From Rhytidiadelphus loreus (Eukaryota > Streptophyta > Bryopsida > Hypnales > Hylocomiaceae), in the NCBI GenBank assembly GCA_947034895.1, contig OX344764.1:66941348-67005347 (forward strand): 64,000 bases of DNA, read 5' to 3'. Of this stretch, positions 9,241 through 46,660 are shown one piece after another. Position numbers and translations under genes: made by a program. The notes under the pieces were generated by a model. It did no database searches. It was not told where the DNA came from and worked only from the letters and a program-made list of their open reading frames with translations. Numbering within the stretch: position 1 is the first letter of the stretch; every line of letters begins with the position of its first letter.

Positions 9241-10703
9241 GGATGAACTCAACACCACTGGAGATAGTATTTTACATTGTCAGGATCAATTATTTTGAAA
9301 CGATGCATAAGTTTTTGCTTGAGGTTTTTAATTCCATCATTGTCTAATCCAACAACCAAGAGATCATCCATGCATAAAATGAGAATTATGATTCCTTTTG
9401 TACTTGTGATATAAAAGAGACTATAATTAATTTGCTTTTGTATTTGTACCGATAAGAACCCATTTATTTTTTTGAACCAAGTATGTGGTCATGATTGTTT
9501 CAGGCCATATAGTGATTTTTTAAATCTCCAAACCTTGTTGCATGTGTATTGGTTTCTGAACCTTTCGAGAACTTCCATATAAACAATTTCTTTTAGATCA
9601 CCATTCAAAAAGGTAGTTACAACATCTAAGTAGATTAGAATCTAGTCATTGGTTGTTGCTAAGGCTACTACTATACATACCTCGTTCCATTTTGCAATTG
9701 GTGCAAAGACCTTGTCAAAATTGATGCCCTTTGTTGCTGAAAGCCTTGAGCTAAGAGCCTAGCTTTTAGCTTGGATGGACAACCATCATGTCCTAATTTA
9801 GTCTTATATAACCACCTTGTAGTTATAGGTTCGATTCTTGGTGGAGGATTGCATAGCTCCCATGTTTCATTTTTTAGCAATGAATTGCGTTTGCTTTTCA
9901 TAGCAACACTCCAATTTGGGTGAGAATCGGCTTCTATGAATGAAAGTAGCTCGGAAGGTTCCTCGAGAACTGTTGATATCTATAGGCTCTATAAGTTTAA
10001 TGTAAGCACTAGGTGGTGGAAATATTTGCTCTAGATCAAATAATAGGTTCTAACGAGTAGATGTACATGTCCTTCAGCCTGCTTGATGGTTGTCTAATTC
10101 TAGTGGACGGTGGGTGGGTTTTAGGGACTTTAGGCTAATTGTTTGGCAGTGTAGGAGATTTGTCGGGGTTGTCTTCTAGACAAGGTAAGCTCAATGTGTC
10201 TGGTAGTTGGATTTGTGAGTGAAGTTCTGGCATAATGGGTGGATTTAAACTAGGCAGAGTGGATATGGTTGAATGGCTATGTGGAATTATAGAAATTGTG
10301 GTGAGTAATGAAAGAGTTGCAGTTTGAGTTATTTTTTTTACTAAATAGATGAGATTCATCAAATCTCATACTATGAGACATTATGATTTTTCTTTCGTTA
10401 GGTAGCCAAATTCTGAAACCTTTGGCTAACCATTGTAACTAACAAAGGGTCCAAGTTTGGATTTGGGCTCTAAATTATCACGCTGGCTTTTTTTTTACCC
10501 AAACATAGACTTTAGATCCAATTATGGATAAAAAAAATATCAATAATTTTGTTAAAGAAGCATTGGAAAGGTGATACCTATAAGTTGACTACAATTGTTG
10601 AATGGTTCAGAAGGAATGTGACAGTATTGATGGCTTCAGTCCATGAAAAACACAGGGGCGTGGCGAATAATGACTTGCTCTTGGCCATTTCTAAAAGTTT
10701 ATG

Positions 10704-16700: not shown

Positions 16701-17526
16701 CAATGATATAACAATGATGAAGACTAGCACATTGCACCTTTATAGATTGAAGGATGTCAGAATGTGTTTTCACTCTCATTAATATATCGTAGTTACTTCT
16801 AAATATGCAGTAAGATATGGTGTACTGAAGTTGTTCCATCTCCGATACTCCCACTATCTTACTATGTATTTTATTTTATTTTACTTGAGTTTTTATTTTG
16901 GTGTCCCAATCTGTTTAATTTTGAGAAGATGATAGAACTTGGGTAACCTTTTTACGGGTGCTTTTGTTTCATCTTGAATTGGTGGAAATGTTTTTCTGGT
17001 TCCATTTCCAGCTCACGTTTTATACAGGTGTGTTATGGCCATCGAGGGATCTCACTCTGCAATGGATTTCCCTTGGCTTTTGTGCAGGCAAGCCTTTGAG
17101 GGCGGGTGGTTCCACACCGGTGACCTCGGCGTGATCCACCCGGACGGGTACATCGAAGTAAAAGACCGTTCGAAGGACATCATCATCTCCGGTGGCGAGA
17201 ACATCAGTTCCATTGAGATCGAGTCCGTGTTGTTCAAGCACCCGGCGGTGATGGAAGCCGCCGTGGTGGCGCGGCCGTCCCAGCAATGGGGCGAGTCTCC
17301 GTGTGCGTTTGTGACGTTGCGGGAGTCGGCCAAGGAGGTCACCACTGCGGAGGACATTGTGGTGTATTGTCGAAGCAACCTCCCACGATATTATGTGCCC
17401 AAGACGATTGTGTTCTGCGATTTGCCGAAGACCTCGACGGGGAAGGTACAGAAGTTCAAACTTCGGGAGCAGGCGAAAGCTTTGAGTCAATCTTCTTCCA
17501 TTCGATCAGGCAGCAGCAAGTTGTAG
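13759..17526 (+). CDS. Peroxisomal acyl-activating enzyme (AMP-forming acyl-CoA ligase, AAE1/AAE7/CNL-like)
   Basis: Four exons, all GT-AG: 13,759-13,950, 14,572-15,017, 16,013-16,627 and 17,088-17,526, joining to 563 aa, a usual length for this family. The enzyme should adenylate a carboxylic acid with ATP and pass it to CoA. Motifs: the P-loop [11 protein letters not shown] at the end of exon 2; [13 protein letters not shown] in exon 3; the adenylate motif [21 protein letters not shown] and [15 protein letters not shown] in exon 4; and a C-terminal Lys in [10 protein letters not shown]. It ends in SKL, a type 1 peroxisomal targeting signal. Relatives in this plant clade act on acetate/butyrate, benzoate or cinnamate; the substrate cannot be told from sequence. 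The start ATG is preceded by GTG and followed by GCG; a second ATG lies two codons on. Introns are 621, 995 and 460 bp. Confidence 0.93.
14011..14031 (+). repeat. (TTTAGGG)3 telomere-like motif in AAE intron 1
   Basis: Three perfect plant telomere units, 60 bp into intron 1. Such 'telo-boxes' near 5' ends of plant genes can bind Myb-type or AP2 factors; function here is inferred only from position. Confidence 0.7.
15018..16012 (+). other. AAE intron 2, holding possible MITE debris
   Basis: The longest AAE intron. It contains GGCCTCTTTCGAATGACC at ~15,106, resembling Tourist/Harbinger ends, and a short hairpin around 15,818-15,845 (ACTGTAACA / TGTTACAGT). Neither has a clear partner end or target duplication. 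Confidence 0.35.
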
Positions 17527-26604: not shown

Positions 26605-26612
26605 TCTGTACC
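26605..26612. repeat. Left 8-bp target-site duplication of the large hAT
   Basis: TCTGTACC directly before CAGGGTTGTC; the identical octamer follows the right end at 40,227-40,234. Confidence 0.95.
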
Positions 26613-27080
26613 CAGGGTTGTCTATCCGGACGTGACGTTGGCTTTTTACGTCCGGATGTCATGACGCGTCCTGACGCGTCAGAGCCCGTCGCCGATACTG
26701 ACGAGACCATCCGCGGCGCGGATGAAGTCTGTCCAGTCTGCGACGGCGTCGGGCCGTCTCCTGGACGGTCATTCCGTCGCCGAATGGACATCCGTCTCTT
26801 GGACGGAGAGCCCATCTGTCCCCTGGACGGTCAGCCGTCCCCTAGATGGAGAGCCCGTCTCTGGACGAAGAGGTCGTCTCCTGGACGGAATTCTCGTCTC
26901 CAGGACGGTAATCCGTCCCCTGGACGCGAATCCGTCCTCTGAACGGGAAACCGTCCACAGGACGGGAATCCGTCCCGTCCCCTGGACCGGAATATCGCTG
27001 GACGGGACAGTCGCCGCTTGGACGGTTTAGGGTGCGGGGCTGCGGGTTTAGGGTCCACCCCATCAGCCGGATGTCCGTCC
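26613..27080. repeat. Left subterminal GGACGG array
   Basis: Dense GGACGG/CCGTCC and TGACG motifs, in the second half with a period near 19-20 bp (CCGTCCCCTGGACGGNA pattern). Very CpG-rich against AT-rich surroundings. The open frames across it on both strands are repeat artefacts. Likely roles: transposase binding and promoter of the following transposase gene (inferred). Confidence 0.85.
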
Positions 27081-27087
27081 AGCTGGG

Positions 27088-27117
27088 TTTAGGGTTTAGG
27101 GTTTTAGGGTTTTAGGG
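27088..27117 (+). repeat. Telomere-like TTTAGGG/TTTTAGGG run
   Basis: GGGTTTAGGGTTTAGGGTTT followed by TTAGGG units, between the left array and the transposase gene. Related units occur at 27,028-27,055 and, in reverse, at 33,407-33,432 inside the same element. Confidence 0.75.
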
Positions 27118-27354
27118 AGGGCTTCAAGGTGTATATTAAGGACTTCCGCCTATTCAAGATTACTTTCCCTTGCTGATTTTGCCTTTCATGTCTTGGTTGG
27201 AGTACAACCATTGCGGTAGAGCGAAGTCCAAGAAGAGTGTGTTGTGGTGGCACTTGTTGTGAGAGCAACAAGTGTTGTTGCCACATCACATTTCAAACAG
27301 AATACTAATCTTTTTTTTGGTGCAGGGGCAGGTAGAGGAGGATAGATAAGAGCA

Positions 27355-28650
27355 ATGGGTGGAGGAAGATCACAGTGGGAACCTTGGTACACACTACAGC
27401 CAGATGGAAAAGTTGCTTGCAAGTTTTGCGAAACTTTGCTAAGCTACCGAAAGGATCGGTTGCTTTTCCATTTGGGATACAGACGAAACGACACTGTCCA
27501 GGGAGTGAGGGCGTGCACTAAAGTCAATGCAGCCGTGAAGGTAATGTTTTGGAATTGTGGAGGACATATACCTACGGACACTTTGCATGGACCTGGACGC
27601 GACGTGGAAGTGACATCACCATCAACGATACTACCAAGTGTAGTACGTGGCGAGCAACAAGTTGATGCTTCAATCTCAGCAAATGATGGAGGAGAAAACA
27701 CTGGGGGGCAAAGCTCTCAAGTACGATCATCGGAGGCGCCCATTCCTAATTTGACCCACAGTCGATCGATGAGGCAATTGTCTGTACAAGATGGAATGAA
27801 CGCATCAAACAAGCAAGTACTAGACAAGAAGTGGGCTAAGTTTTTCTATGAAGCCAATATACCATTCAATGTAGTGAGGCATCCTGCTTTTTTGGATGCA
27901 GTGAAATCAACATCGGAATCGAGAGTTGGCTACAAACCTCCAGCGTACCATGCACTTCGTACAAAGCTCATAAAATCTACAAAAGATGAAGTGGCAGCAA
28001 TTGTAGCAGAGAAGACAAGGGCACCAATCCACAAGTATGGCGTTACAATATGCTCTGATGGATGGGATAATGTGACACATCGACCATTGATGAATGTCAT
28101 GTTGGCATGTACAAGTGGAGAGGTATTTCTTGGATCGATAGATACAACAGGCGAATGCAAAGATGCTACTTACGTGGCTAATTGCATGGGTGATTACATT
28201 GACGGGGTAGGGGCACAGAACGTGGTACAAGTTTGTACAGACAATGCAGCAAACATGTTGGCCGCTGGCGCTCTGTTAATGCGTAGATTTCCACACATAT
28301 ATTTTCAAGGATGTTCAGCACATGCACTTGACCTTCTACTTGAAGATTGGGGAAAACAAGATTGGGGCCAACGACCTCTTCGGACGTTGTCTTCTATAGC
28401 TCGACCACAACGAAACCGCAATGATGAGGCCTCCAGCGAAAGTGATAGTGCACCATCCAATCATTCCAATGATGATGGTGCATCCATCGGTGGTACTATA
28501 GGTGAAGATGGTGAGGTTCCAGGAGATAGTGATTACAGGGGGCCGGTGCCTCGACAAGGTCCACTCGAAGAAATTGGTGGTAATGAACCAATAGTACAAG
28601 AAACAAATGCAAATACTTTTGTGCGCATTCTTAGGCATGGAAGACGTTGA
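27355..28650 (+). CDS. hAT transposase-like protein, DUF659 type, internally shortened (431 aa)
   Basis: The ATG follows an apparent 5'-UTR intron acceptor (T-run then GGTGCAG). Residues ~8-55 form a BED-like zinc finger (CKFC at 22-25, H39, C54). Residues ~158-335 match the DUF659 domain of plant hAT transposases: AKFFYEANIPFNVV, GYKPPAYHALR, CSDGWDN (Asp235), CTDNAAN (Asp296), GCSAHALDLLLED. These Asp residues stand where hAT enzymes keep the first two catalytic acids. After LLLEDWGK the protein jumps to RPLRTLSSIARPQRNRND and an acidic Ser-rich tail. The region with the third catalytic acid and the hATC dimerisation domain is missing. A near repeat AAGATTGGGG at the join (28,344-28,368) suggests deletion by short homology. 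Probably inactive as transposase but may still bind DNA. Confidence 0.85.
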   Translation: MGGGRSQWEPWYTLQPDGKVACKFCETLLSYRKDRLLFHLGYRRNDTVQGVRACTKVNAAVKVMFWNCGGHIPTDTLHGPGRDVEVTSPSTILPSVVRGEQQVDASISANDGGENTGGQSSQVRSSEAPIPNLTHSRSMRQLSVQDGMNASNKQVLDKKWAKFFYEANIPFNVVRHPAFLDAVKSTSESRVGYKPPAYHALRTKLIKSTKDEVAAIVAEKTRAPIHKYGVTICSDGWDNVTHRPLMNVMLACTSGEVFLGSIDTTGECKDATYVANCMGDYIDGVGAQNVVQVCTDNAANMLAAGALLMRRFPHIYFQGCSAHALDLLLEDWGKQDWGQRPLRTLSSIARPQRNRNDEASSESDSAPSNHSNDDGASIGGTIGEDGEVPGDSDYRGPVPRQGPLEEIGGNEPIVQETNANTFVRILRHGRR

Positions 28651-30000
28651 ATGTTTTTGAAATGACAATAGGGTCTTCACATTTTCAAATGCAAATTTTT
28701 TAGAGGCTCAATACCTTGCATATTGAAATCAGCATTAATATTAAATATGACTTAGGTTCCTTTCATTCTCATGGAACTATTTACCCCTAAAGTCCCAAAG
28801 TCATTACAGAAAAAGAGATGCAAAACTGTTTTTTCTCTTGCATTTGCCTCAACATGTGGAAAAAAATGTTTTTTACCATATCTAACCGTAAGATCTTGTA
28901 CTTCACATGTTTTTTATCACGTGGAAAAAATTTCATGAAGTTTGACCGAATAGATTGAAAGATATTAGCATTCAAACTTGGAAGAACTAGTTTTCTGAAT
29001 GCGGTCTTTGCAATTTCAAATTAACTTTCACTACGATTTATGGAAAATTAGGCCTCTGGAGTTTGGAGCAATATTGTTTTTGAATTTTTTTTTGTGAATA
29101 CGAAAGAATCGATGTCTAAATTTGAAAGAGTTATTGCAATTGAAAACTCAATGTGTTAAAATCCAAATAACACAATCTGACAGTCTAGTGTTTTTTTCAT
29201 GTATGTTTTCTTTTTTTCAAATTTAATTTAAATTAAAATTCTAAAACTATGTTTTTCATTCATTCCTTCGTTTACGACTTTATGGTAAGAGTTTCCGGTT
29301 ATTCTGATACATATTCTAATTGATAAAATTTGATTTCCACGTTTAGCTTTATAAAATCACAATAAATTCATTTTTCCATTAATTTTGCTGAAAAAAATAA
29401 AATAAATTTAAAATAAATTCTTACGAGTGGGGAGAAATATTAAAATATTATGCTGATTTTCAATAAAAATATAAATTTGGTTTGATAGTGAAATTTGACT
29501 TCAAGCCCGTCTTTGTGGTTGTTTATTAGTTTCGGGTGTGAAAACTAAAATAACCAATTGAAAATTGGTTCGACTAGAAATCTCTATTGATATTTGGACC
29601 TCTTGTAAAAAACTAAAAATTTAGAATCTCGTGAGTTGTTTTTTCTATTTTTACTTATTTATGGCACGAAGTGCAACAAAAATGATGACAATTACAATTG
29701 TGCACAAAACTAATTGGAATTTCTTATAATGATGTACAATTCAGAGTTTTTAGTACTAAAGATATAAGATTTTTGTTTAAACTCAATTTAAATGATAAAG
29801 TTAGGAAAGACAATAAGTTCTTTACAACTCAATGTTTTGGTAAAATACTTTTATATCTTTATATAAACCAAAATGAGTACAAAATGCATTGAAGCCACAA
29901 AGTGTGCTACATTGCTACGTATGTCCTCAAGCCTACATTATAATAACCGCATGTGCTAAGTAAACACTAACTTTGCAACTATATGGTAATACACTATTAT
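28651..30000. other. AT-rich spacer inside the hAT element
   Basis: No gene. It holds a module (28,888-28,985: AGATCTTGTACTTCACATG, TTTGACCGAATAGATTGAAA, TATTAGCATTCAAA) that recurs at 38,045-38,135 after the RING gene and in diverged form at 58,750-58,850 outside the element. Confidence 0.55.
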
Positions 30001-31680
30001 CTAATCTTCATTGCGCGCCTGCTCTTCTTGAAGGTCTTGTTCTTTGCGAGCCTCGCGATAGCAATCCACAGCTGGTGTCCAAAACGTTGGAGCACCACTT
30101 AGACGTTGCACGACGTATGTCACCGAGCGTTGTTGTAGTGGCTCCACCTTGCACAATTCACCCAACATGGTTTGAAATGCACCAAATGCCGTATGGTCCG
30201 GAATCATCTCTAGATTTCCACGATCTTTTTTCCATACCTTCATAGCCAATTTGCCTATGGAGTATCCATCTGTGTGTATACTAACACACGGTGGCTTAAC
30301 CCTGCGAGTAGGAGATGATGAAGTTCCTGTCTCTCCAGTCAAGTACATCAACTCAGGAGCCACCCACCAACGTTGCGCTCGGGTTGCCTGCAACTTCCTT
30401 GAACAATTGAATTGGTAAAGAGAAGGGGTTTCTTCGTTGATGCGGCTACCCATTCCCCAATCACATAGACCAATCCACACGGTTCTGCCATCATCATTCG
30501 GAAAATGAAGCATTATGTTCTCCGGTGTGATGTCGTTGTGCAATACAGAGCATTGTTGCACTGCATCCACAATGCAAATCATTGCCCACGCAAGTTCAGT
30601 GCGCTTGCGTCTATATGCCATGAGGCGTTTCATGGCTTGCATTGTTTGTGGAGTTGCATCGTAAGCCACCTCTCCAATTTCATCTAGATCTCGGTTCTTC
30701 TCATCTAGTGTAAACATGGCGCCGAGAGTACCGCCATTCCACCACTGCGAATAACACTCCATGGTCATATCATTTATAGCAAAGAATTTGATGACCCCTG
30801 GATGCTCGCATGGACATACCAATGCCTCGATGGACAACTTCTCCCTGGACTTTTTCAATTCATCCACGCGCAAAGCTGACTTCCCAGCTAATTCCATATT
30901 CTCCGGAATATGTTTTGAATTTTGAACACATACTTTGCGCACCCTCCCATGCCCCCCTTGTTTGCTATGGCCAGACAAAGGAACCACCACCACTCCGCGT
31001 TCAAGAAAAACCACTCCTCCTGCAGCCTGTTGACCAAAGGCCAAATTTTGACTTCGTTGAAACCACGGAGCGGAACGGATGTTGTTTGAAGACAGTCCAC
31101 GCATTGTTTCATGCCACCAATACACCTTCTTGTGCAACAAATTCAATGCTTGTTGTCTGGGCACTACACTCTTCTGAAAGCCTTTTATTTTTTCCGCAAC
31201 TTGGGCAAGGTTGAAGATACACGTTTGCACTTGTGACTCCAACCAATGATCGAAGCATTCTTTCGTGCGGTCTTCATGCCACTCATCCGCGCTCATTGTT
31301 GTCCAAAACATGTGGTGGAACTTTTGTTTTATGACATCCACTCCCTGTAATCCGCGCGAGACGTATGTTGTGTTCAACTGCGAAATCGAATACTGCTCAA
31401 AAAAATCCAACGCCACTTCATGCAATTTTCGCGTTGCACCCTTGCTTGGCCACTTCTCCGGATTTGTAGACTTGTGCCTCCTTCGGGTTTTTTTTTTCCC
31501 CTTCGAAGACTCTCCACCCCCCCCAGCAGCTGTGGCCCCTTCTGCAGCTACGGACCCTTCAGCAACTACGGCCTCTGAAACGGGCTCTGGTGATTCTGCA
31601 TCCAGGTCCATCATCGGTGCATTTCCAATACCTGTATACCAATCATCAACTTTTCTCTTTGAGAAATCTCGACCAGCCAT
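30001..31680 (-). CDS. Protein-kinase-like protein carried by the hAT element (559 aa)
   Basis: Single-exon ORF. I prefer ATG 31,678-31,680 (MAGRDFSKRKVDDW); an upstream in-frame ATG at 31,836 would add 52 residues in poor context. Residues 1-60 are low complexity (Ala/Glu/Gly); GKKKTRRRHK (~61-70) is a possible nuclear signal. A helical, Trp/His-rich region follows (~85-200). A kinase fold occupies ~235-530: Gly-rich GGHGRVRKV, AGKSALRV (candidate Lys), VLHNDITPENIML (catalytic loop, Asp383 and Asn388, with Asn in place of the usual Arg of HRD), CDWGMG (Asp407, DWG for DFG), APELMY (441-446), and HTDGYSIGKLAMKVW for helix F. Key acids are kept, so activity is possible. Substrate unknown. Closest kinase subfamily cannot be named by eye. 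Confidence 0.8.
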   Translation of the reverse strand: MAGRDFSKRKVDDWYTGIGNAPMMDLDAESPEPVSEAVVAEGSVAAEGATAAGGGGESSKGKKKTRRRHKSTNPEKWPSKGATRKLHEVALDFFEQYSISQLNTTYVSRGLQGVDVIKQKFHHMFWTTMSADEWHEDRTKECFDHWLESQVQTCIFNLAQVAEKIKGFQKSVVPRQQALNLLHKKVYWWHETMRGLSSNNIRSAPWFQRSQNLAFGQQAAGGVVFLERGVVVVPLSGHSKQGGHGRVRKVCVQNSKHIPENMELAGKSALRVDELKKSREKLSIEALVCPCEHPGVIKFFAINDMTMECYSQWWNGGTLGAMFTLDEKNRDLDEIGEVAYDATPQTMQAMKRLMAYRRKRTELAWAMICIVDAVQQCSVLHNDITPENIMLHFPNDDGRTVWIGLCDWGMGSRINEETPSLYQFNCSRKLQATRAQRWWVAPELMYLTGETGTSSSPTRRVKPPCVSIHTDGYSIGKLAMKVWKKDRGNLEMIPDHTAFGAFQTMLGELCKVEPLQQRSVTYVVQRLSGAPTFWTPAVDCYREARKEQDLQEEQARNED

Positions 31681-32290
31681 CGTGACAGTAACAAGTAACA
31701 AATAATCAAAATGATAGGAATTAGGAATTCGGCTTCCACAAAGTGAAAAACCGCCCCCCTTATTCCTCAAACCAGCCTCTACCCAGCACCCGCGCTCGCA
31801 AGCAAGGATTGCAACCAATCCAAGACAAGAGAGCACCGTCAGAGCAAGAGAGACTGTGGCGAAAGTACCCTAAAAACAATCTTTATATACCCATTTCACG
31901 TCGACGGAAAGGCCGTCGAGAGGACGGACAGGGCGTCCAGGGCCGTTTAGGGCCGTCCAGGGCGTCCAGAGGACGGGAAGGCCGTCTAGGGGGACAAGCC
32001 GTCCAGCCCGCGGACCAGTCATCGAGAGGACGGACGACCGTGCAGGGGCTGAGACCGTCCAGCCTAAACTCTGGGCGTCCAGAGGACGGGAAGTCCGTCC
32101 CCCCCCATGGACCAACCGTCCAGCGGGCTAGGCCGTCCAGAGGACGTGAAGACTTTCGAGAGACGGCACAGGTTGTCGAGAGGACAATCTGAATCTCGAG
32201 AGACGGAAAGCCCGTTGAGAGGACGGACAGGCCGTCGAGAGGAAGGGAAGGCCGTCAAGAGGGCGGGAAGGTCGTCGAGCGGGACGTTCG
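31681..32290. promoter_or_regulatory. Kinase gene upstream region with GGACGG array
   Basis: 31,911-32,290 is a run of GGACGG/CCGTCC/CCGTCGAG motifs spaced about 20 bp, ending close to the 5' side of the minus-strand kinase gene. The same kind of array precedes the other two genes of the element. Open frames in it are repeat artefacts. Confidence 0.75.
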
Positions 32291-34660
32291 AACAAGTGGA
32301 ATTCATTTCTAATCCTTGTTCCACGAATTTTTCATTTATGTGGTTCGGCACTCTCGGACTTGTCAGGACAGGTGTCCTTCCTCTCAATCGGGCATTAGTC
32401 TACGGGGGCGGGTAGTTTAGGAGTGCTAACTTAATGTATTTATTTGTTTCAATTAGAGGACAAATAAATACCAGGGATGACATTCAAATGCTGAAAACGA
32501 GGTTTACTGCTCATTTAGAATGGAATTCTATTTTGTTGCACGTAAATAATGGGAGATACATAGAAAAAAATCACCAAAGGTCAAATTGAAAACTTCTTAA
32601 TGTCGGTCCTTTAATGTTCTATTTGGATGTTCATGTTAACATTTGATTCATTCTATTGATTCTAATTGCACCCATTTTCACGAAAGTCGTTGGCATTGGG
32701 CAATGTTTTTATTCCCAAAACCTCAAAATCTCGCAATCCCTTAAAATAATTTATAATCTGTAGGGCTCAAATTTGAATTCAAATGAATTTTATCAATTAT
32801 ACGTAGAACAATTTCACCTTTGGAATTATTGTATTTTGATTCCATCCTTCCTTGCATGTAAGTGCACATGACAATTTAGTATTTTGTTGAATTTTAAACC
32901 CTATCTATACTAGTATACTCAATTCAAAGTCTCAATCGTACAAACATTCAATAACTTACTGAGAACGGATCAAATATACAAAGACCAAGACAAAAACAAC
33001 CCTCTAAATGCTCTAGTTAAAGGTAGTAAGATTAATACTCTAAAATGGTTAATTATCAAATAAGTGAAAGACCTCCTAAACAACATATGTCATATGCATA
33101 TCATTGATTCATGTAAAACATTGTTTCTTCTTTCCATTCATACATTACATAAAAAAAATGTAGCCCTATACATCTATACTTAAGAATGTTTTACCTTTTA
33201 CAGATATTGTTATGCCATTTTTTGGTGTCTTCAATATGTTTTCTAAAACTTTGAATTTAAATCATTAATCTATTTTTTTCCAATTCAAACTTCAAAGACT
33301 ACATCTTGATTGAGTTTTGCACTTGTAATGCCAACTACCGAAATGAAGGACATGTTTCGTAGTATCCGGTCCAACCTAGGTTTTGAAGTAAATCCTATAG
33401 GCTTATACCCTAAACCCTAAACCCTAAACCCTAGACGTTGTTGCAATTTTAAGAGAATTTGATGTTCAAGTTTATGTAACTATGACAAATAAGAGAGGAT
33501 TGGTGTAAGTCTGTAAGATAAAGGAAAAAAAAGGACGAATGGATTCTAATGTTCCATGTAGTTTTCCACACAAAGGGAAACTCTAAAAGACTAAAACAAT
33601 AACATAATAACATATGGCATTTGCCTTTTATTTTTATTCTCAAAATCAAAATGCAACATTGAGTACATGAACTTGACATTTTTGTGGTGCCTATATTTTT
33701 TTTATGGCTTCTAAATTATAATGCAACTAGCGGTGAATTACTATAGTTTTTCTTATGGATTGTTTATTAATTGCTTATGTAGTATCGTATGTTAGCCACT
33801 AAACTGACTGAAGTCGCAAGGCCTCTTTTGAGTCTTTTCCATACTAAATCTGAATAAATTGCCATTTCTAATTTTCTATAGCAAAGAATTAAAAAAAAAA
33901 TAATGTGTTTAGGCCTCTAAGGTGCACCTTTGCTTGTAGCATGTAGGATCTCATACTAGAGTACTAGACTAGTGTTCAATTGATCGGAAGAAATTTCACA
34001 AACTTGACCTATGTAGAATTGTAGATTGCAAGATATTTACAATAAACTTCACCCTCTGAACACCCAACGGCATCATTTAGTGCCAATTTAATGGCAGTTC
34101 AATCACTTCAATGACATGGAAAGAAGTTGGAAGCGTTCATTTCATTTTCTTGGGACCTACCATGTTGAGTTACAAAGTGTATCCAATTGATTTTGTAGTC
34201 TTTCCAATATTTGCCTCCAAGTAATTCCGAGTTTAGAAAAAATAAAAAATAAAAAATATGCTCCTTTAGTGTATTTTAGGAAGTTGTTGCTCCTTACTCT
34301 AAATCTAAGATTTCTCCCCAAAATTGATATTTTGGGAGTTTGAGTCTAACTATCAAACAAAAGGTCCTTTTCTCTAGTTCCTATTTTATGTAAAATCCCC
34401 CAACACAACCCTAAATTGAAATTTCATTATTGCGATTTGAACTTCGAATGTGTTTTTAATGTCTACTACATTGAGTACAAAACAAATATATCATGAAATG
34501 GAAATTAAGTTTACACTATGATGAATTCTAATGTCATTGTCCTTGTGATATATACACATGGTGAAAAATTGAAAATCTGAAAATTACTTTTCTATTTAAC
34601 GTGATTTTGTCAAAACTTCCACCCTGAACCAATTTAAAAAAAAAAAAAAAATTTATATAT
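32291..34660. other. AT-rich internal spacer of the hAT element
   Basis: 2.4 kb with no gene recognised. It contains a reverse telomere-like run (ACCCTAAACCCTAAACCC at 33,407-33,432). Confidence 0.5.
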
Positions 34661-34663
34661 TGT

Positions 34664-35160
34664 GAAGGGCCGTCCAGAGGACGGAAAGGCCGTCCCAGAC
34701 CACGAACAGGCCGTCGCGAGGATGGGCAGGTCGTTCCCGACCAGGGACAGGCCGTCGAGGATACGGGCAGACCGTCCTCCTGGACGGGCTTTCCGTCGAA
34801 GAGACGGGTAGGCCGTCTAGGGGACGGAAAGCCCGTCCAGGACCAGATCCAGGCCGTCCAGGGGACGGAAATCCCGTCCCCTCCCACATCCAGGCCGTCG
34901 AGGGGACGGGCAAGCCGTCCAGGGGACGGAATGCCCGTCCCCTCCCACACCCAGGCCGTCGAGGGGACGGAAAGCCCGTCTAGAGGACGGAAAGGCCGTC
35001 CGTCGAACTCTCGGGCGGCGGTGTAATCATTCCCCGAACCTGGAGACGGCGCCCCGAACCCGTTGACGGCGTTCCGACCCGAGGCTGGACGTCCGTGGAC
35101 GGATCGGCCGTCCATTCTAGGGTTGTCCCCCGCCGTGGACGGTCTGGATTTGGGGGGGGG
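34664..35160. repeat. GGACGG array upstream of the RING gene
   Basis: About 20 tandem-like units of 20-21 bp (GGCCGTCCAGAGGACGGAAA pattern, with CCGTCGAGGGGACGG variants). It ends ~265 bp before the RING gene ATG. CpG-rich. Open frames through it are artefacts. Confidence 0.85.
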
Positions 35161-35425
35161 ACGGGCTGATTAGGTGTTAATTACCCTTGCTAACCGGGTC
35201 GGTAATTGGGGGGTATAAGTGACATTTTTTCACATTTGCCCTTGCTTCCTCTTTTGAATTGCACTGTCTTAGCTTGAGAAAGCTTTGCATTGCAATTTGA
35301 GGGGAAGTGTTATACATTTGACATTGTTTTGCCACATTTCAGTTGCCTTCACGCAACAGAAGGCAAAGCAAATTGTCATTGTATTCGCATACAGTATCGT
35401 GTGTGTCATTGTGCAGGTATCAAGA

Positions 35426-37660
35426 ATGGATGCAAAGGATGTAGCAGGAGGTGAGGGACCTGGAGGTGAGGGAAGCGGTAGAAAGAAGAGAGGAAATAGA
35501 GCAACTTTGGATTGGGGCACACTTAATGCCCCAGCGATTATGGCACAGCCTGGGTGGTTGGAGGCAGAATCACTATGGACAAGAGCGACATGTCGGCGGT
35601 TTGTAGATTGGGCCCACATCAACCGCCATTGGCCACACGACCGGTACGAGGTGCACGTGAAATTTGGCGTGGTGAATATTGACCAGTGCACCCATCCGCA
35701 CTTCAAGAAGAGGATGATTGAAGTGTCATTGGCACTTTGGGGTTCAAGATCGAAGAAGGACGGGACACTTTCATTGTGCCAAATGGCATATGCGGAGGTT
35801 TTTCTTGGCAAGGATGTGGATTGGAGAAGCTTTTTGGGCAGACAGCGGGACAACAAGTTTCCAAATAGAACTCGCCACATTCCAACAAATCCTGCCGTGC
35901 CACTAGACAATGCACAAATTCCTGCCGTGCCATTGGTTGGTATTCAAAATGTGCAAATGGATGTGGTTCCACCCGTGGAGCAGCCAAGGACGGAGTTGAT
36001 GGAAGTAGAAGTTGGTCAGAGCAGCGGTGCAAATGTCAACCAACAAAATGTGATTGGTGGAGCCCAAGCTGACAGTGAAGAACTAATTCGCTTGCGCCAA
36101 TTAGTACAAACACTGCAAGCGGAAAAAGAAGAAGCGCTACGACTTCATGCAACAGAGTTTGAAGTTCAAAGTGCAAGGATGCGGGCCCTTGTAGATGAAA
36201 ACGTGCGCCTCATCGCACGTGAAGCAGAGCTTGTAGAGCGCAACAGGCGGTTCAGCACAGACTCAGTTCCACCACTCGATGTTGTAGTGGAACGTGCTAC
36301 ATACGGGGCAGACGAAGACAGAGCAGGCCCGAGCAATACACCTGAGTTTGTGGTACGACCACGGGCCATTTTTCCAAATGCAAAAAGTGCCTCATTGGAT
36401 ATTATGCGTGCACGTGCTGAGCGGGCTGAAGCAGAGGTTGGAAGTACTCGCACAAGCATGGAAGAATTAACAAGCGCCATGCGTGCTTTGGAACTCCGTG
36501 CCAACAGCGCTGAGGCAGATGTGGCGGTGTTGACTGCAGCTCGAACTGACATGGAACAGACCATGACCGCAATGAGTGCTCAAAACATGCGGTTGGTCCA
36601 CAATCCTCAGAAGGAACAGATGCTGCTTCAAATGTGCAACATGAAGTTGACATGCAGCATGGCGCTAAACGAGGCTGAGCAAATGCAGCGTGAAGTGAGG
36701 AGAGTGGCTGCGGAATTCAATGATGGCGGTCAACGTTATTTTGGCTTGACCTCATGGCCTCGAGTGGAAGAAATGTTCACCAACGATTTGCTAGTGTTTG
36801 CCGAGAATTCAAGCATCGATTGGAATTCCCGTGCAGACTTGGAATTCCAATACAATATCGAGCGCCAACGGTACGGGCCACCCAACCGCGATGGCATTAC
36901 ACCACTAGTGTGGCCGTCCGTTCCAGCTTTTGTACAAGATGGAACAACATGTATAATTTGCCAAGAACCGTTTGGCCCAGAAGGTGGATGGAATCTTGGT
37001 ACATGTGGCCATCTATACCACCCCGGGTGTCTCATTCCTCACATGGTCACCAGAAAGAGATGTGCGCAATGTAGAGCTCCATTTCATGCACGACTGTACA
37101 AAACGTTTGGCCTTCAAGACCACATGCCTATAGCGTACGAGTACAATGAAGAAAATTTACCGGGCCTCGGTAATAGAGTACATTGGGGTTCAGACGTGAC
37201 ATGGCTTTGGAAGTGGGGCCACGACAACCGACACTTCCTGGCAGGAACGGTCGCTGAGATACATTGGCAGAGTGATGCCCAAGTGACAGAGGTGATCAGG
37301 AGGGTTTTTGGAGAGGGTGATCCAGGGCGTCGACTATATTTTGGTCAGATTGCGGGTGGACATTGGGACCAAGACCGCTCCATTTTTGTGCGTGCGCCAC
37401 ATCCACAGCGCATCATGTTTAACTCTCAAGGCGCGCCAGTCGGATTTGAGGGTGAACTGAGTTTTGAGGAACAAATGACGTACATTGAAGACAATACCTT
37501 CCATGAGCCAGCTCTCGTGAGTGCCATTTATTCCCACTTACATAATAGATACGACATCGACGCATTTCAGCTATTGACGACTTTGCAATTGCGACGAGAA
37601 TTGCAACAATTTTTGAGAAACAGCATAGCACGAGGCGTTGTAATCGAAGAAGTAGAATAG
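35426..37660 (+). CDS. Coiled-coil RING-H2 protein carried by the hAT element (744 aa)
   Basis: Single-exon ORF; ATG 35,426-35,428 follows a likely 5'-UTR intron acceptor (TCATTGTGCAG). The frame stays open upstream to 35,285 but those 47 residues look like leader sequence. A basic patch RKKRGNR lies at ~19-25; an N-terminal Trp/His-rich domain of unknown type (~35-145: FVDWAHINRHWPHDRYEVH, CQMAYAEVFLGKDVDW) follows. Coiled coils lie at ~216-277 and ~325-390 (LQAEKEEALRLH, MRARAERAEAEVG). A RING-H2 finger has C509, C512, C527, H529, H532, C535, C546 and C549. After it comes a conserved-looking C-terminal domain (HWGSDVTWLWKWG, GGHWDQDRSIFVRAPHP, helical end). RING-H2 proteins are usually E3 ubiquitin ligases; the target is unknown. 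It is intact, which hints at recent constraint or recent capture. Confidence 0.85.
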   Translation: MDAKDVAGGEGPGGEGSGRKKRGNRATLDWGTLNAPAIMAQPGWLEAESLWTRATCRRFVDWAHINRHWPHDRYEVHVKFGVVNIDQCTHPHFKKRMIEVSLALWGSRSKKDGTLSLCQMAYAEVFLGKDVDWRSFLGRQRDNKFPNRTRHIPTNPAVPLDNAQIPAVPLVGIQNVQMDVVPPVEQPRTELMEVEVGQSSGANVNQQNVIGGAQADSEELIRLRQLVQTLQAEKEEALRLHATEFEVQSARMRALVDENVRLIAREAELVERNRRFSTDSVPPLDVVVERATYGADEDRAGPSNTPEFVVRPRAIFPNAKSASLDIMRARAERAEAEVGSTRTSMEELTSAMRALELRANSAEADVAVLTAARTDMEQTMTAMSAQNMRLVHNPQKEQMLLQMCNMKLTCSMALNEAEQMQREVRRVAAEFNDGGQRYFGLTSWPRVEEMFTNDLLVFAENSSIDWNSRADLEFQYNIERQRYGPPNRDGITPLVWPSVPAFVQDGTTCIICQEPFGPEGGWNLGTCGHLYHPGCLIPHMVTRKRCAQCRAPFHARLYKTFGLQDHMPIAYEYNEENLPGLGNRVHWGSDVTWLWKWGHDNRHFLAGTVAEIHWQSDAQVTEVIRRVFGEGDPGRRLYFGQIAGGHWDQDRSIFVRAPHPQRIMFNSQGAPVGFEGELSFEEQMTYIEDNTFHEPALVSAIYSHLHNRYDIDAFQLLTTLQLRRELQQFLRNSIARGVVIEEVE

Positions 37661-39516
37661 ATAGTTTTGGACTAGATTGTGTATAACTAGATAGATGTAT
37701 AGAATTAAATACCGGAAGTTGTACAAAGCAAACATATGTAATTATATAAAGTCTTTATTAGTTTACTATGTACTTCAGCGGATTTATAAAGTATGTACAT
37801 TTATCGTTTTCTTTCCACCTTGTGTATTGTTGCTTCGCCTTTGTCTATTTTTGTAATCTATTGTACCTTTTTGTAATAGTATAGAAGAAGCTTGTATGCT
37901 TAGATGGTAGGTAAAAGAGTGTTCTATCTTTATTTTGGGTGTTGCCCTAAAGTCCGAAGTCCATTTTTTGGCCCAAACCACCCTAAACCACCCCTATGTT
38001 CACCTATGAATTAAATTTTCCAATTTTTTTTTGAATCGAACCAAAGGATCTTGTTCTGCACTTGTCTTAGATGACGTGACCATAAATTTGTGATGTTTGA
38101 CCGTATGGATTGAAAGTTATTAGCATTCGAAGTGAAAGCTCCAAATCTATTTAAAGAAGTGGCTAGGATTGCCCGCTCCATAGAAAAATCCATAACTTTT
38201 CCATTCCTAATCCAAATGGGATGAATGAAAGCCTCCCATTTAAAAGAAAATATAATGCAACTAGAAAAAAATATACAAATTTGTATTTCATTTTATTGTG
38301 GATTTTTTTGTCTACCCGGAGTCCTGGACCGCCCAGTGTCCCGATCTCCCCTGTTTGAGGTTATTCTGTTCTTGTGGCCTATCCCTAACCCCTTGCTCCT
38401 AGGCACCGATTGGAATAGAAATTGTATTATGAATAAACTCATAAGTTTATCTATCATTCTATAATTCTATTTTATCATTCTTATGAAAAAGTTTTCAAAA
38501 GTTTGAGTAAAAAATTAGATCATGGGCGCCTATCGAAAATCCATTTTGTCCCTTGCAGCAAGGACAATGAGAGTATGTTACTTTAGGGTCTAAGAAATAA
38601 AAACAATGGAAATTCTTCCCCAAAGCCTAAAATAATAAAAAAAAATCTCTATTGCTTCATAATTGATGAAATCTCCTCTAAGTCTTTAGAATTAAACCCT
38701 AAATAATTCACGTTTTGTAACTTCTTTTCTATTAGTTATTTAGTTTGAATCTTTTTTTAGTTGGACACATGATTGACTACTCCCTCATTTTTTTTTTAAC
38801 TCCAAAGTTTACAAATTAAAGTATTTAACATTTTCCATTTTCTCTCAAATGGCATTATGGCATTATTGAACAAAATGTCAACATTTTGGATTAGGAGACT
38901 AGGTGTATCAATTTGCAAAAAATTGTAACCGTATAAATTCAAACAAGACATGTTAGCAATCTCATAGGTTGCTAAAACACAACAATATCACTTATAGAGT
39001 AAAAGATTATAATGTTTGAACATGAGGGTGTTAAAAGTACAAAAATGATGTGAAGTCTTCCAATCCTCTTTTCAGTTTTCACAAGTAAAATTAAAAAAAA
39101 TTTAGACCCAAAAAACATGAGGTTAAATTGCCTAACATGTATAACCCCAAACAATTTATGGCTTTTAAAAGTATACTCCATATTTTTCTTTTAATTAAAT
39201 TTCAAATTTGAATGTGATGTTTTCTCCAAGATCTTGTTGTGTTTTCGAGGCACATTTCCAAAAGCTCTCAATGCTACAAGAAGTTAAGATTGCAATGGGT
39301 ACCCTTGCACAAAGTCTTAAAACGATAAATCACTATCATTTATTTTTAAGAATAGACTATTGATGCTAAAACTAGACTTCAAGAAGAACTTCCTAAAAAT
39401 AGCAACTTAGATACTACTAAAAATAGCAATTTGGTTAGGTTTTATTTGACTTCGAAGTTTTGCCAACACCAAATTTGGGTGCTTCGGGCATTTAGGCAAA
39501 AAATCCAATCTAACCC
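37661..39516. other. AT-rich spacer inside the hAT element
   Basis: No gene. 38,045-38,135 repeats the module seen at 28,888-28,985 (GGATCTTGT, TTTGACCGTATGGATTGAAA, TTATTAGCATTCGAA). A neighbouring block (CCATAACTTTTCCATTCC, CCAAATGGGATGAATGAAAG) is also of a dispersed type. Confidence 0.5.
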
Positions 39517-40226
39517 GTCCAGAGAACCGTCCACTTACCCGTCCAGATGCCCGTCCACATGCCCGTCCAGTATTCCGTCCAAAGACCCGTCTATACAACC
39601 GCCTACCCTTCCGTCTACATGCCCGTCCACACAACCGTCCACCCTTCCGTCCACATGCCCGTCCAGAGAACCGTCCACTTACCCGTCCAGATGCCCGTCC
39701 ACATGCTCGTCCACCCGCCCGTCCACCCGCCCGTCCAGTTTTCCGTCCAAATACCCGTCCATCCCGCCCGTCCAGATACCCGTCCACACAACCGCCCACC
39801 CTTCCGTCCACATGCCCATCCAGTTTTCCGTCCACATACCCGTCCATCCCGCCCGTCCAGATACTCGTCCACACAACCGCCCACCCTCCCGTCCACATGC
39901 CCATCCAGATGCCCGTCCACCCGCCCGTCCAGTTTTCCGTCCACATACCCGTCCATCCAAACCGTCCAGATACCCTAAATCCCGCCCGTCTAGATACCCG
40001 TCCATCACGCCCGTTCCGTGCCCGTCGACGGAAGCTCGCCCGTCCGGCGCGCCCGTCGACGAAGAACGTCCATCCATTTCCGTAGTTTTCATCCTCTGTG
40101 AACGGTTCTCGTTCAGATTACATCCTGACGGACGCCGGGGTTGAATCCTGACGGACGCCGGGGTTGAATCCTGACGTCCGTCCGGACATCCTGACGGACG
40201 GACAGGACGTGACGGGGACAACCCTG
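39517..40226. repeat. Right subterminal 12-bp CCGTCC array plus TGACG repeats
   Basis: From ~39,517 to ~40,000 the motif CCGTCCANNNNN repeats with a strict 12-bp period, dozens of times. Because 12 is a multiple of 3 it creates long repetitive open frames on both strands that are not genes. From 40,124 a 23-bp direct repeat (TCCTGACGGACGCCGGGGTT...) occurs twice or more before the terminal GACAACCCTG. Confidence 0.88.
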
Positions 40227-40234
40227 TCTGTACC
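40227..40234. repeat. Right 8-bp target-site duplication of the large hAT
   Basis: TCTGTACC, identical to 26,605-26,612. Confidence 0.95.
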
Positions 40235-42416: not shown

Positions 42417-45400
42417 CTAAATTTCAAACTTAGATAGAATGCCGACGTGACGCCTGTTTGCGTTGAAGCTACTGAGAGCTAAGGGTTTCGTGAAGAAATC
42501 AGCTAGCGGGTCTTTGGTGGGGATGTACCCTACCTGTATCTCTCCTGCTTTTGCAGTATCACGAATAAAGTGATGCTGAATTTCTATGTGTTTAGTTCTG
42601 GCATGCAAGACAGGGTTTTCAACTAACATGATGCACAATTGGTTGTCACTGAGTAATGTTGTGGGAGCGTCCATGTTGAACCCTAGTTCTTGAAATAATC
42701 TTCGCAGGTGAATGATGTCCTTGGCTACGTCGGTGAGGACTCGATATTTGGCTTCAGTTGTTGAGAGAGAAACCGTCGGTTGCATTTTAGTATTTTACTG
42801 CTCCAGCCAATACTTGAACTTCCAAATTGGTGGAGTATGCCTGATATGGATTTGCGAGTGTCGATATCTCAGCCCCAGTCTGCATCAGCATAAGAGTGGA
42901 GGGTGCTGTTGCAATCAGAGGACAGGAATAGGCCGTAGTTGGCAGTGCCGCTCAAGTATCGCAGTATCCTTTTTGCTGCTTGGAAGTGAGCCTCTTCCGG
43001 TTCTTGCATATAACGAGAGATACTACTGACAGCATAACAAATATCTGGACGAGTATGGGAGAGATAGAGCAAGGATCCAACTAGAGATCGGTACAATTCG
43101 GGATCAATCCTCGTTGTTCCTGTGTTCTTTTGAAGTTGCAGTTTGGGGTCAATTGGTAGCTTACTTAGATTGCAGTGTTGTAGATCAAATCTTTCAAGTA
43201 ATTTTTTGATATATCCATGTTGATTGATGAAGATACCTTGAGTTGTTCGATTGATCTCAACTCCTAGGTAATTGTTGGCTTCTCCCAAGTCCGTCATTTC
43301 AAATTCGGATTGCAGCTTTTGTTTGAGATCTGCAATGCCTTTTGTATCGTCCCCTGTGATCAGAAGATCATCAACATAAAGTAGAAGAATGATGAGTTTA
43401 CCGTCTGTTTTCTTGAAGTAGAGATTGGAATCACTGACGCTTCTTGTTAGTCCTTGCTGTTGGAGCCATTTGTCAATGCGATCGTACCAGGCCTTCAGAG
43501 TCTGCTTGAGACCGTACAAGGCCCTGCTGATTCGGCATACTTTGGTCGAGTCTCCTACGCTTGGAAAACCTTTAGGTATCTCCATCAAGATGTCTTTATT
43601 AATAGTCCCATTCAAGAATGTTGTAATTACGTCCATTTGGGACAGTGCCCAGTTGTGCTTTGCAGCAAGAGCAAGGATAACTAAAATTGTTTCCCAACAT
43701 ACAACATGTGCAAATACTTCATGATAGTCAATGCCCTCCTTTTGTTGAAATCCTCGGGCTACAAGTTGAGCCTTGAGCTTGTTTATCGTGCCTTCAGCAT
43801 TTCGCTTTGCTCGGAAGATCCATTTTGCTGTAATCGGAGTTTTATCATCGGGTCGATCAATGACGTCCCATGTTTTGTTCTTTAAGATAGATTTGACTTC
43901 GCTTTCAATGGTCGTCTTCCATTCCTTCTGATCGCTTGCCTCTTTGAAGTTGATCGGCTCTTCTATTACTTCCGAGAAAAGGGACCAGAAGTCCTTCAGT
44001 CGTACTGACGGAGCTCTTGTGCGAGTAGGATAGCGGCGGGTTGCTGGACCTTTCTGTCGATTGACAGGAAGAGGAGTTTTGTTCCTCTTGAGAGAACTTG
44101 TTTGCAGGTGCTGATCTAAATTTTGGTTTGTTTCTTCGATAGAGTCTGGGAAGTCTGTGGTTTGGCTGATCGGGGGTTTGGGTGGCTCGATACTATTGCT
44201 TCTGTTTCCTAAAGGTATTGAGTTCCTGTTGGGTGAGAGATCTGAGAGTCCTAGATTTGAGACAAAGGGTTGATTAGTATTTGGGCTCGGTGGATCAGGG
44301 TGTATGGGAGCATTTTCGAGGACTGTCTCAGGATCTAGGTTGTCCTGTTTTGAGGAATTATCAGTGCTGGGTTCTGGGAAGATGAGGGGACTTGAGGAGG
44401 AGTCCGTAGGTTCTAGGTGGTGATAACCTACGAGGTTTTTGTCGAAAACTACATCACGACTTATTAGGACCTTTTGTCTACTGCGGTCAAACAATCTGTA
44501 TGCTTTGGTTTCATTGTCAATTCCTAGGAACAGACACTTCATAGATTTGCTATCCAGCTTTCTACGATTTTCTTTTGGTATGTGTACATGAGCGATACAA
44601 CCAAAAATTTTGAGGTTTGTGACGTCGGGTATCATACCTGTGTAACGAGCTTCCAGGGTTTCTCCGTTGTTTGCTCGAGTTGGACTTCTGTTGACAAGAT
44701 GAGTTGCATGGGACACAGCCTCCGTCCACAAGAAGCACGGTAAGTTGCAGTCATGCGAGATGCTGCGGGCTCTCTCCATAATTGTGTGGTTTCGCCTCTC
44801 GGATATGCCGTTTTGCTGGGGCGTATGTGCTTGGGTAAGCTCTCTCTTTATACCATTTGTTTTGCAGATGTCCGAGAACTCATCAGACAGATACTCACCG
44901 CCTCGATCCGAGCGAAGTATCTGAATGCAATGTCCTGTTTCAGTTTCAAGTTGTTTCTTGAAGATCAAAAACTTATCTACTGTTTCGCTTTTGTGTTTTA
45001 GGAAATACACCCAGCTTTTGCGAGAGAAATCGTCCGTAAATACTAATGCATAGCGGGATCCACCAAGAGATGTTTGCTGCATCGGACCTATGACATCAGA
45101 GTGTATTTTCTGACCTGGATATTGGGCTCTGCTGTCGGATCTTCGAGGGAATCGTTCCCAATGCTGCCGTCCAGAGAGACAACATGTGCAAACTCGATGT
45201 TCCAGTGCTATCTTTGGAAGTCCGGTAACTTTCCCATGTTTGGACAGGAAGCTAACTCCAGCATAGCTCAGGTGACCGAGTCGGCGATGCCATAATGTTG
45301 TCAGGTTCTTGTGTTCAGCTGCAAGCGCCATCATTGGTTGTTGGAAGGCGTACAATCCATTCGATCGATCACGTTGTCCAATGGCTACAGTCTTTCCATG

Positions 45401-46660
45401 CTCATTGATGACCCAACAATTCTTACTGGAGAATATAACTTGGTTTCCAGAGTCGGCAATTGCTCCAACCGAGATGAGATTTTTCTTCATACTAGGGACG
45501 TAAGAAACGGTCTTTAACTTTATTGTGCCGTTTTCAGTCTGAACAGTGGTAGGACTGAAGCCTATTACAAGATGCGACTCCCCCCCTCCAGTTTTGATTT
45601 CACGAATCTCTACACCGGAGGAGTTTGGAGAACGATCTAATTTTTGAATGTCTGACGCTATGTGGCATGTGGCCCCACTATCAAGATACCAGGGGCCGTT
45701 CCCCCAATGATAGTATGGATCATAATAGTCATAAGCTAATTCTGATTCAAAAAACTCGGCCGAGTTTGCGTACTCTATGGTCTTGGTTTCTTGGACGTGA
45801 TAACCGCGCGGATTGGGCGGCAGTCTACAGTCCCGAGCAAGATGCCCTCGCTTGGAGCAATTGTAGCAGATTGGAGGAGGTCGATTTCCGTATTGGTGCC
45901 GACCTGGGAAGCCTCGTCTTGGGAAACTTGGGAAGCTTCGTCCTCTGATCATATATGGCCAGCGTCCTCCTCCGTGGCCACGTCCAGCGCCTGGTGACTG
46001 TATCGATGTTCTCTGAAAGCTGGCAGCGAGGGCTTCTTCATCTCCTAGTTGCTGGTGACAGTGTTGACGCCTGTGGAATTCTAACAGTAAACTGGCGTTG
46101 AGTTTTTCGAAACTCATATTGGAATCCAAATGCGTGAGAGTCTGAATAGTACTCTCATATGACCTTGGAAGACCGTTTAAGACTATTTGGTTAACGTTTC
46201 TGTCAGACATCTTCTCTCCTATGCTTGCTAACCGGTTCTTTAGTTCTCTAGCTCTCTTTATATACTCTTCTATCGAGCTACCTTCATTCATCTTTAGTGA
46301 CTGCAATTTTCCCATCAAAGTGAGGATCTAAGACTGATCTCCAGAATTGAAGTGATCCTTCAGAGTTTTCCAGATCAATGCAGGATCGGAGTGCTCAGCG
46401 ACAAGATCGACTAAGTCATCGGATACGGACAACAACAGTAAGCGGCAAGCTAATACTTTTTTTCTTTTCAACTGAATTTCAGTCAGTGTCTCTCCATCAA
46501 CTACTGCAGGAAATGCGGTAGGGTTTTGCTCTGTTTCAGTAGCTCCCCATTGCCCCTCAGTTCTCAGCATGGCCTTCATTTTGAAGGCCCAGACATAATA
46601 GTTTTAAAACCCTTTCAACTTATCTCCTTCTCTCATGACTACGCTCGAGCCCTTAGCCAT
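42417..46660 (-). pseudogene. copia gag-pol polyprotein, nearly intact but with stops
   Basis: Starts at ATG 46,660 (MAKGSSVVMREGDKLKGF) with an in-frame TAA where an Asn/Thr of the gag motif would be, continues (YYVWAFKMKAMLRTEG), meets a stop at 46,328, then runs open for ~1,150 codons to 42,869. Domains there: CCHC knuckle CYNCSKRGHLARDC, protease WYLDSGATCHI, GAG-pre-integrase LWHRRLGHLSYAG, integrase FTDDFSRKSWVYF and RSDRGGEYLSDEF with NGISERRNHT, and RT LKAQLVARGFQQ with LLYVDDLLITGDD. The RNase H part is broken by a TGA after YADADWG and a frameshift before QPTVSLSTTEAKY; it ends at 42,417 (KHIEIQHHFIRD, TKDPLADFFTKPL). So three stops and one frameshift make it defective. Confidence 0.93.

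Follow-up and report, generated by a model that had tools for sequence, protein, structure and literature searches.

Cut-and-paste transposons are usually viewed as a transposase gene between two ends, and the locus described here raises the question of whether such an element can also carry, as stable parts of its own, genes for proteins that would act on other proteins. It lies in a stretch of 64,000 nucleotides from Rhytidiadelphus loreus (Bryopsida, Hylocomiaceae), hereafter the window (contig OX344764.1, positions 66,941,348 to 67,005,347, or C4:66941348-67005347 in the numbering used below), in which an earlier note, made from the letters alone, had described a hAT transposon with a protein-kinase gene and a RING gene as cargo. 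Here, we show from the structure of this element, its copy number, the linkage of its genes, their old pairing in a distant second element, arrays of short repeats and signs of constraint in selection tests that the kinase and RING genes belong stably to a hAT lineage with several genes, and we consider what they might do for it.

The element and its transposase

The element is 13.6 kb long. Its left and right ends, CAGGGTTGTC and GACAACCCTG, each occur once in the window, form perfect terminal inverted repeats (TIRs) of 10 bp and are flanked directly by two copies of TCTGTACC, with the exact ends and the perfect 8-bp duplication all located where the earlier note had placed them. The three gene-sized open reading frames (ORFs) that it had listed are likewise present, running from stop to stop at 27346-28650 (+), 30001-31869 (-) and 35273-37660 (+), and they contain DUF659 (E 1.7e-37), Pkinase (1.9e-8) and zf-RING_2 (2.1e-6), respectively, all of which pass the curated cut-offs of Pfam; an APH match below cut-off was also given (the three gene-sized ORFs were scanned and smaller ORFs left out). 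Repeats of the TTTAGGG type are present within the element. Its features are listed here from left to right, where words are occurrences of CCGTC or GACGG.

26605..26612, no strand: left target-site duplication TCTGTACC
26613..26622, plus strand: left terminal inverted repeat CAGGGTTGTC
26613..27100, no strand: left GGACGG/CCGTCC array, also upstream of the transposase gene; 21 words, with TATATTAA after it at 27132
27355..28653, plus strand: transposase remnant with CxxC..H..C motif, DUF659 and acidic tail; 1,794-bp in-frame deletion at 28365/28366
30001..31680, minus strand: divergent protein-kinase gene, 559 aa; Lys, Glu, HND and DWG motifs retained
31881..31889, minus strand: TATATAAAG, 209 bp upstream of the kinase ATG
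31900..32290, no strand: kinase-promoter array, 18 words
34660..35160, no strand: RING-promoter array, 31 words; TIR-like TAGGGTTGTCCCC at 35118
35214..35219, plus strand: TATAAG upstream of the RING gene
35426..37660, plus strand: RING-H2 gene, 744 aa, rich in coiled coil; eight zinc ligands
39510..40226, no strand: right-end array, 43 words
40217..40226, minus strand: right terminal inverted repeat GACAACCCTG
40227..40234, no strand: right target-site duplication TCTGTACC

The transposase of the window copy is a remnant, which retains the N-terminal CxxC..H..C motif, DUF659 and an acidic tail. Residues 1 to about 337 match the relatives P0023 and P0024 at 86-87%, and the last 94 residues match at 71% the end of P0094, a protein with the hAT dimerisation region. 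No other sequence of a hAT C-terminal half was found in the window by three-frame reading or by tblastn with 94 proteins; with P0094 the sole match was the tail at 28366-28647, and none of the 94 matched outside the element. Six other copies whose left part was read (L055-L060) contain sequence that is absent from the window transposase, their alignment running to window position 28365 in all cases (28350 in L058) and restarting at 28365 or 28366 in five and at 28512 in L060. Relative to L055, whose transposase gene reads through 1,074 codons without interruption and includes both DUF659 and the hAT dimerisation region (PF05699, 7.4e-9), the window lacks 1,794 bp, or 598 codons in frame, and with them the C-terminal dimerisation region. 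A 31-base pattern spanning the deletion junction, searched with up to three mismatches, has a single place in the genome, the window itself, and the deletion therefore appears private to this copy. The earlier description of a hAT transposase-like protein is corrected on this point, as what the window encodes is a remnant without 598 codons that include the dimerisation region.

The window element is a deletion derivative of a multi-gene hAT family, and we take it to be comparable to an internally deleted Ds-type derivative. The transposase of the undeleted copies is about 1,030 aa long, has both DUF659 and the dimerisation region, and is open in one copy read. The window copy itself could be mobile only in trans; both cargo proteins may still come from it, and a repressor role is conceivable for its truncated DNA-binding protein. 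Near the N-terminus, a CxxC occurs within the first 90 residues of 27 of 71 transposase relatives, 24 of these 27 having the whole CxxC..H..C pattern; we read this as a putative BED-type finger, and none was reported there by Pfam at E 0.01 or 0.1. Residues 183-570 of P0094, after the dimerisation region, make up a long tail rich in acidic residues and serine.

Copies, linkage and a distant second element

In the host genome searched (407,041,205 bases in 489 contigs), the end 10-mer CAGGGTTGTC has 2,333 places (1,155 + 1,178), against 254 (115 + 139) for a reversed control. This excess, together with the other copies described below that have the same ends and other 8-bp duplications, excludes chance. 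At about 2,080 over the control, the excess is also well above the number of scored kinase copies, and many of the 10-mers are probably the ends of other, or of shorter, elements. Of the first eight places (L001-L008), two encode distant relatives of the cargo and L001 holds the tail of a close transposase copy; the bases that adjoin the 10-mer differ in L001, L003 and L007.

The kinase has at least 78 copies (the best 78 of 1,253 candidates), none of them below 91% identity, of which 26 are free of internal stops and 52 contain them, and the RING gene at least 60 (the best 60 of 2,700 candidates), all at 94% or more, with 22 stop-free and 38 interrupted; both sets hold the best candidates, and the counts are lower bounds. 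As both genes are multi-copy across the five largest contigs, the possibility that they are host genes of the window locus is ruled out. The two travel together: a scored kinase lies no more than 12 kb from 42 of the 60 RING copies, where 1,000 random placements average 0.33 and never exceed 3 of 60, and the paired copies are divergent in every case (42 of 42), with a gap of 3.58-3.96 kb in 38. Starting from the kinase, the RING gene lies at the expected place next to all 15 copies checked (one RING being partial), and among the shorter kinase frames of 514-518 codons it was present in two of the three stretches read.

For eight copies, both end places were fetched by the spacing of the window element. 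The right end was exact in five, had one mismatch in a sixth and was missing in two, and the left end was absent from that position in all eight because undeleted copies are longer on the left. When the region further left was read for six copies, the left end was found in each (with one mismatch in L055), and five of the six are bounded by perfect 8-bp duplications, all different, namely AGCGGAAT, CTACTGGT, TTCCATGG, GTCCGCCC and TTCTGAAC; the right end of the sixth was not found in the stretch read. The check proposed in the earlier note, that several copies should share ends and gene set with different duplications, was thus run with a positive outcome. In one of these six copies both cargo frames are stop-free and the transposase is open for 978 codons, ending in a shifted frame. 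Another copy, L052 (C1:10703897-10705097), has inserted next to or inside a further DUF659 transposase gene, which is 57% identical to the window remnant.

One of the two places with distant cargo relatives is a far-diverged second element of 14,986 bp (C1:514032-529017), in which the same gene types recur; its ends are CAGGGTTGTC and GTCAACCCTG, the latter with one mismatch to the right end in the window, and it has the duplication CCCGAGAG at both flanks. Its kinase, on the minus strand, is 26% identical to that of the window and retains the Lys, Glu, HND and DWG motifs; its RING gene is 31% identical around the RING; and its transposase is 40% identical to the window remnant and 46% to P0094 in the C-terminal half. 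Gene order differs from that of the window element. A tree of 19 kinases places the two from this genome on either side of a branch with 100/100 support, each beside public proteins; the program warns of long branches meeting at that same branch.

The second element also has an extra gene (L080 616-1746, +), in which the RING protein's N-terminal domain recurs at 31-33%; no Pfam domain was found in it, and hence no RING finger was reported, and it looks like a duplicated domain. At the other place with a distant cargo relative, L079 7295-9000, a degenerate distant kinase lies about 1 kb inside a right end at 10000 (C1:543603), with small motif clusters; no left end to go with it was found in the 10 kb read.

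Cargo proteins, repeat arrays and constraint

The window kinase has the features of the protein kinase superfamily, with PF00069 above cut-off and the catalytic residues in place. Across a 19-row alignment, K267 and E285 are invariant and N388, D407 and G409 are present in at least 90%, with the Asp of HND replaced by Asn in P0003 and the sequence of P0008 stopping short of HND. An AF2 model of mean confidence (pLDDT) 72 matches kinases at E 4e-8, with TM-scores of 0.29-0.36 by the length of the model and identities mostly of 10-16%, and in a profile search of the PDB the sole match at E 0.001 or below was FUS3 (2.7e-4). Public relatives among 8,000 candidates scored form a close group of eight (57-84% identity) and a distant group of ten (29-34%). 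Public relatives of the RING protein number four, at 41-69% identity, and in the five aligned proteins the C3H2C3 ligands C510, C513, C528, H530, H533, C536, C547 and C550 are invariant, from which an E3 ligase of RING-H2 type is predicted, with E2 binding and ubiquitin transfer as its expected properties. At E 1 or below, its profile matches 19 PDB chains. Most are RING domains, with RNF24 ranking first at 2.5e-5, and those at 0.045 and above include some other proteins, partly coiled-coil.

A feature that ties the genes to the ends is the placing of the short repeats. The window element has 120 CCGTC/GACGG words, and 114 of them fall within four stretches that make up 15% of its length (their bounds were set after viewing the distribution), and these lie at both ends and in the kinase and RING promoters. 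Every array is richer than all 500 dinucleotide shuffles of itself: the left array has 21 words against a shuffled mean of 3.8 (maximum 9), the kinase-promoter array 18 against 3.1 (8), the RING-promoter array 31 against 4.4 (13) and the right-end array 43 against 8.2 (15). Each of the three promoter arrays has a TATA-like box downstream, and in 29 of 30 kinase copies, the window included, an array of 14-22 words is kept together with TATATAAAG at -208 to -210. The second element has 89 such words, of which 80 are clustered in five arrays, one at each end and one before each of the kinase, RING and transposase genes. Each of the five exceeds all 300 shuffles, and TATA-like words show no regularity in this element. 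Within the RING-promoter array of the window, the TIR-like TAGGGTTGTCCCC (35118-35131, +) differs from the right end at 2 of 14 bases and is possibly the trace of a once separate unit.

Constraint was assessed between relatives and among copies. The replacements that separate the window kinase from its seven relatives are more conservative than in a neutral simulation from the window gene in seven of seven comparisons, and the same holds for the RING protein against four relatives; two distant transposase relatives also differ clearly from neutral simulation. The relatives were collected as open frames, which means that an absence of stops in them tells nothing. In a set of 30 kinase copies, variants found once have a ratio of nonsynonymous to synonymous changes (N/S) of 0.97 relative to neutral, with 14 stops against 12.2 expected, those found in two copies 0.77, and those in three or more 0.49 (27 N, 19 S; one-sided p = 0.015). 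For the RING gene the values are 0.92 for singletons, 0.70 for variants shared by two or more copies (p = 0.12) and 0.84 for three or more, and pooling the shared variants of both genes gives p = 0.007. Copies were chosen by protein score, which is a bias against damage, and the neutral singletons suggest that this bias is small. This variant pattern fits dead copies derived from a source that is probably constrained, and we favour a reading in which constraint on the cargo appears clear between relatives and modest within the genome. The view that the cargo is not made of random gene fragments is supported by the kinase, where variants shared by three or more copies stand at 0.49 and singletons at 0.97, and less strongly by the RING gene alone.

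Two other features of the window lie outside the element. At 14539-17526 (+) there are exons of an AMP-binding (acyl-activating) enzyme, with the C-terminal domain in an ORF at 16978-17526, which looks like an ordinary host gene with introns, and at 42869-46327 (-) a Copia-type polyprotein frame (gag, integrase, reverse transcriptase) is stop-free over 1,152 codons and is likely a recent retrotransposon.

Known systems, rival explanations and a possible mechanism

This is a family of the hAT superfamily (Ac/Ds, hobo, Tam3, Tol2/Tgf2), within its DUF659 branch, with which it shares 8-bp duplications (in the window, five of the six other copies and the second element), short inverted ends, subterminal arrays at both ends and, in an undeleted copy, DUF659 joined to the hAT dimerisation region. 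Evidence of cut-and-paste activity consists of the footprints that past insertions appear to have left. It departs from ordinary hAT elements in its length (13.6 kb, and 15.0 kb in the second element), its stable kinase and RING genes and the arrays before its internal genes. VANDAL elements of Arabidopsis, which are Mutator-type, with a duplication longer than 8 bp and a MULE transposase, are similar plant DNA transposons with extra genes and dense arrays of short motifs in their non-coding parts; the 8-bp duplications and DUF659/hAT transposase found here place the present family outside them. VANDAL arrays evolve via tandem repeat formation and are read by VANC, a DNA-binding anti-silencing protein of the element (PMC5735166), whereas the extra proteins here are a kinase and a RING protein, for which an anti-silencing role is hypothetical.

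By the description in PMC4890040, the transposase encoded by hAT elements has about 600-800 aa. The fungal ToxhAT, or ToxTA, resembles the present element as a unit of about 14 kb with several genes that was formerly filed as hAT, but in the part of PMC12506042 at hand it has a 2-bp TA duplication, 74-bp ends, a place near Tc1/Mariner and a single copy per isolate, and that part contains no conserved kinase and RING set; its 2-bp duplication and its removal from hAT mean that it is no precedent. The same part of that source describes Starships, also eukaryotic mobile units with cargo, as fungal, about 200 kb long in one example and dependent on a tyrosine recombinase captain; no captain is among the three gene-sized ORFs here, which are DUF659, kinase and RING (smaller ORFs left out). 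Among the titles and abstract openings that searches of the open-licence literature returned, we found no description of a hAT element with kinase and RING genes, a scope that leaves aside Repbase reports and most subscription papers, and the stable gene set and end-type arrays before internal genes, in a family that has the hAT features, are new to us.

The best explanation as a whole, to which we give a probability of about 0.6, is a multi-gene hAT family in which the transposase would bind the arrays and the kinase and RING protein would act as a protein-modification module. In the hAT element Tgf2, an N-terminal zinc finger is required for binding to ends that bear subterminal repeats, as reported in PMC4890040. 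If such binding applies here, the zinc-finger-like N-terminal region of the transposase would bind the GGACGG/CCGTCC arrays, those at the ends to build up a transposition complex and those at the promoters so as to switch three genes jointly, its own and those for the kinase and the RING protein. In the weakest step of the mechanism, the kinase might then mark a protein, either a host silencing factor or the transposase, that the RING protein would direct to ubiquitination, with the result that copies could evade silencing or that transposition might be held in bounds.

Several points weigh against this explanation. Binding of a protein to the arrays is predicted, and the activities and substrates of the kinase and RING protein are putative; the AF2 model of the RING protein (pLDDT 47) is too poor for a fold search. 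No copy was found intact throughout: in each of the six with the left part read, at least one of the three frames does not stay open up to its usual end, and stops interrupt both the RING gene and the transposase of the second element. Linkage is incomplete in that for 18 of 60 RING copies none of the best 78 kinases lies within 12 kb, though these copies may or may not be unpaired, and that L076, from the group with kinase frames of 514-518 codons, has no RING gene in the stretch read. The close transposase comparisons (P0023, P0024, P0025) are not clearly apart from the neutral BLOSUM score, the selection signal among copies within the genome is modest, with p = 0.015-0.017 for shared variants of the kinase and p = 0.12 for the RING gene by itself, and kinase singletons and shared variants do not differ significantly (Fisher p = 0.14).

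Plant transposons are known to capture genes, and host kinase and RING genes picked up by chance, with no role in the life of the element, would sit well with cargo copies of which most are interrupted by stops (52 of 78 for the kinase, 38 of 60 for the RING gene, among the best candidates). Such capture nevertheless leaves unexplained why the genes are whole and keep their order and spacing in the paired copies, why each is preceded by an array of the type found at the ends, why the same two gene types recur in another order in the far-diverged element, and why shared variants and comparisons between relatives carry signs of constraint; already weakened strongly by these findings, it is very improbable. 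In particular, the fragmentary, copy-variable cargo of Pack-type elements is not what was found, the same whole genes occurring in constant order and spacing in the paired copies and again in the diverged element. A viral or prokaryotic source of the cargo, suggested by the viral nature of some large multi-gene mobile units in eukaryotes, we consider scarcely credible: two scans of viral contigs with short word patterns, which may miss distant relatives, found no relatives of the kinase or RING protein, and a search for the kinase alone, also with short word patterns, found none in 84,980 prokaryote species.

A more serious alternative, possible though we would not bet on it, is that the kinase and RING protein act solely on the element's own transposase, on its activity or amount, and not on host defence. 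The common promoter arrays suggest joint control with the transposase, and its long acidic, serine-rich tail could be modified, but phosphorylation or ubiquitination of the transposase is hypothetical and many hAT elements function without such proteins. The arrays also bear on origin, in that three formerly separate units, each bringing an array and an end-like sequence, might have fused and now move together. The TIR-like TAGGGTTGTCCCC at 35118 in the RING promoter is consistent with this, as are the other gene order of the second element and its extra gene with the N-terminal domain of the RING protein, whereas no unit with a single cargo gene was seen, though no systematic search was made and the 18 RING copies with no scored kinase nearby were left unread. 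We regard such a fusion as unlikely; it concerns how the family arose and does not exclude the multi-gene, array-controlled hAT family that we prefer.

Taken further, that preferred explanation would have a hAT lineage keep its own kinase and RING module under the sites of its transposase, across deep divergence and probably across host species, to disarm silencing or license transposition, a proposal that we advance tentatively and think somewhat unlikely as it stands. If true, it would mean a counter-defence by protein modification borne by a cut-and-paste transposon. A high-copy hAT family with a kinase gene, a RING gene and end-type repeats before each gene would indicate that such elements can bear signalling machinery of their own, and it makes the resistance of DNA transposons to silencing through protein modification testable in one genome with many recent copies.

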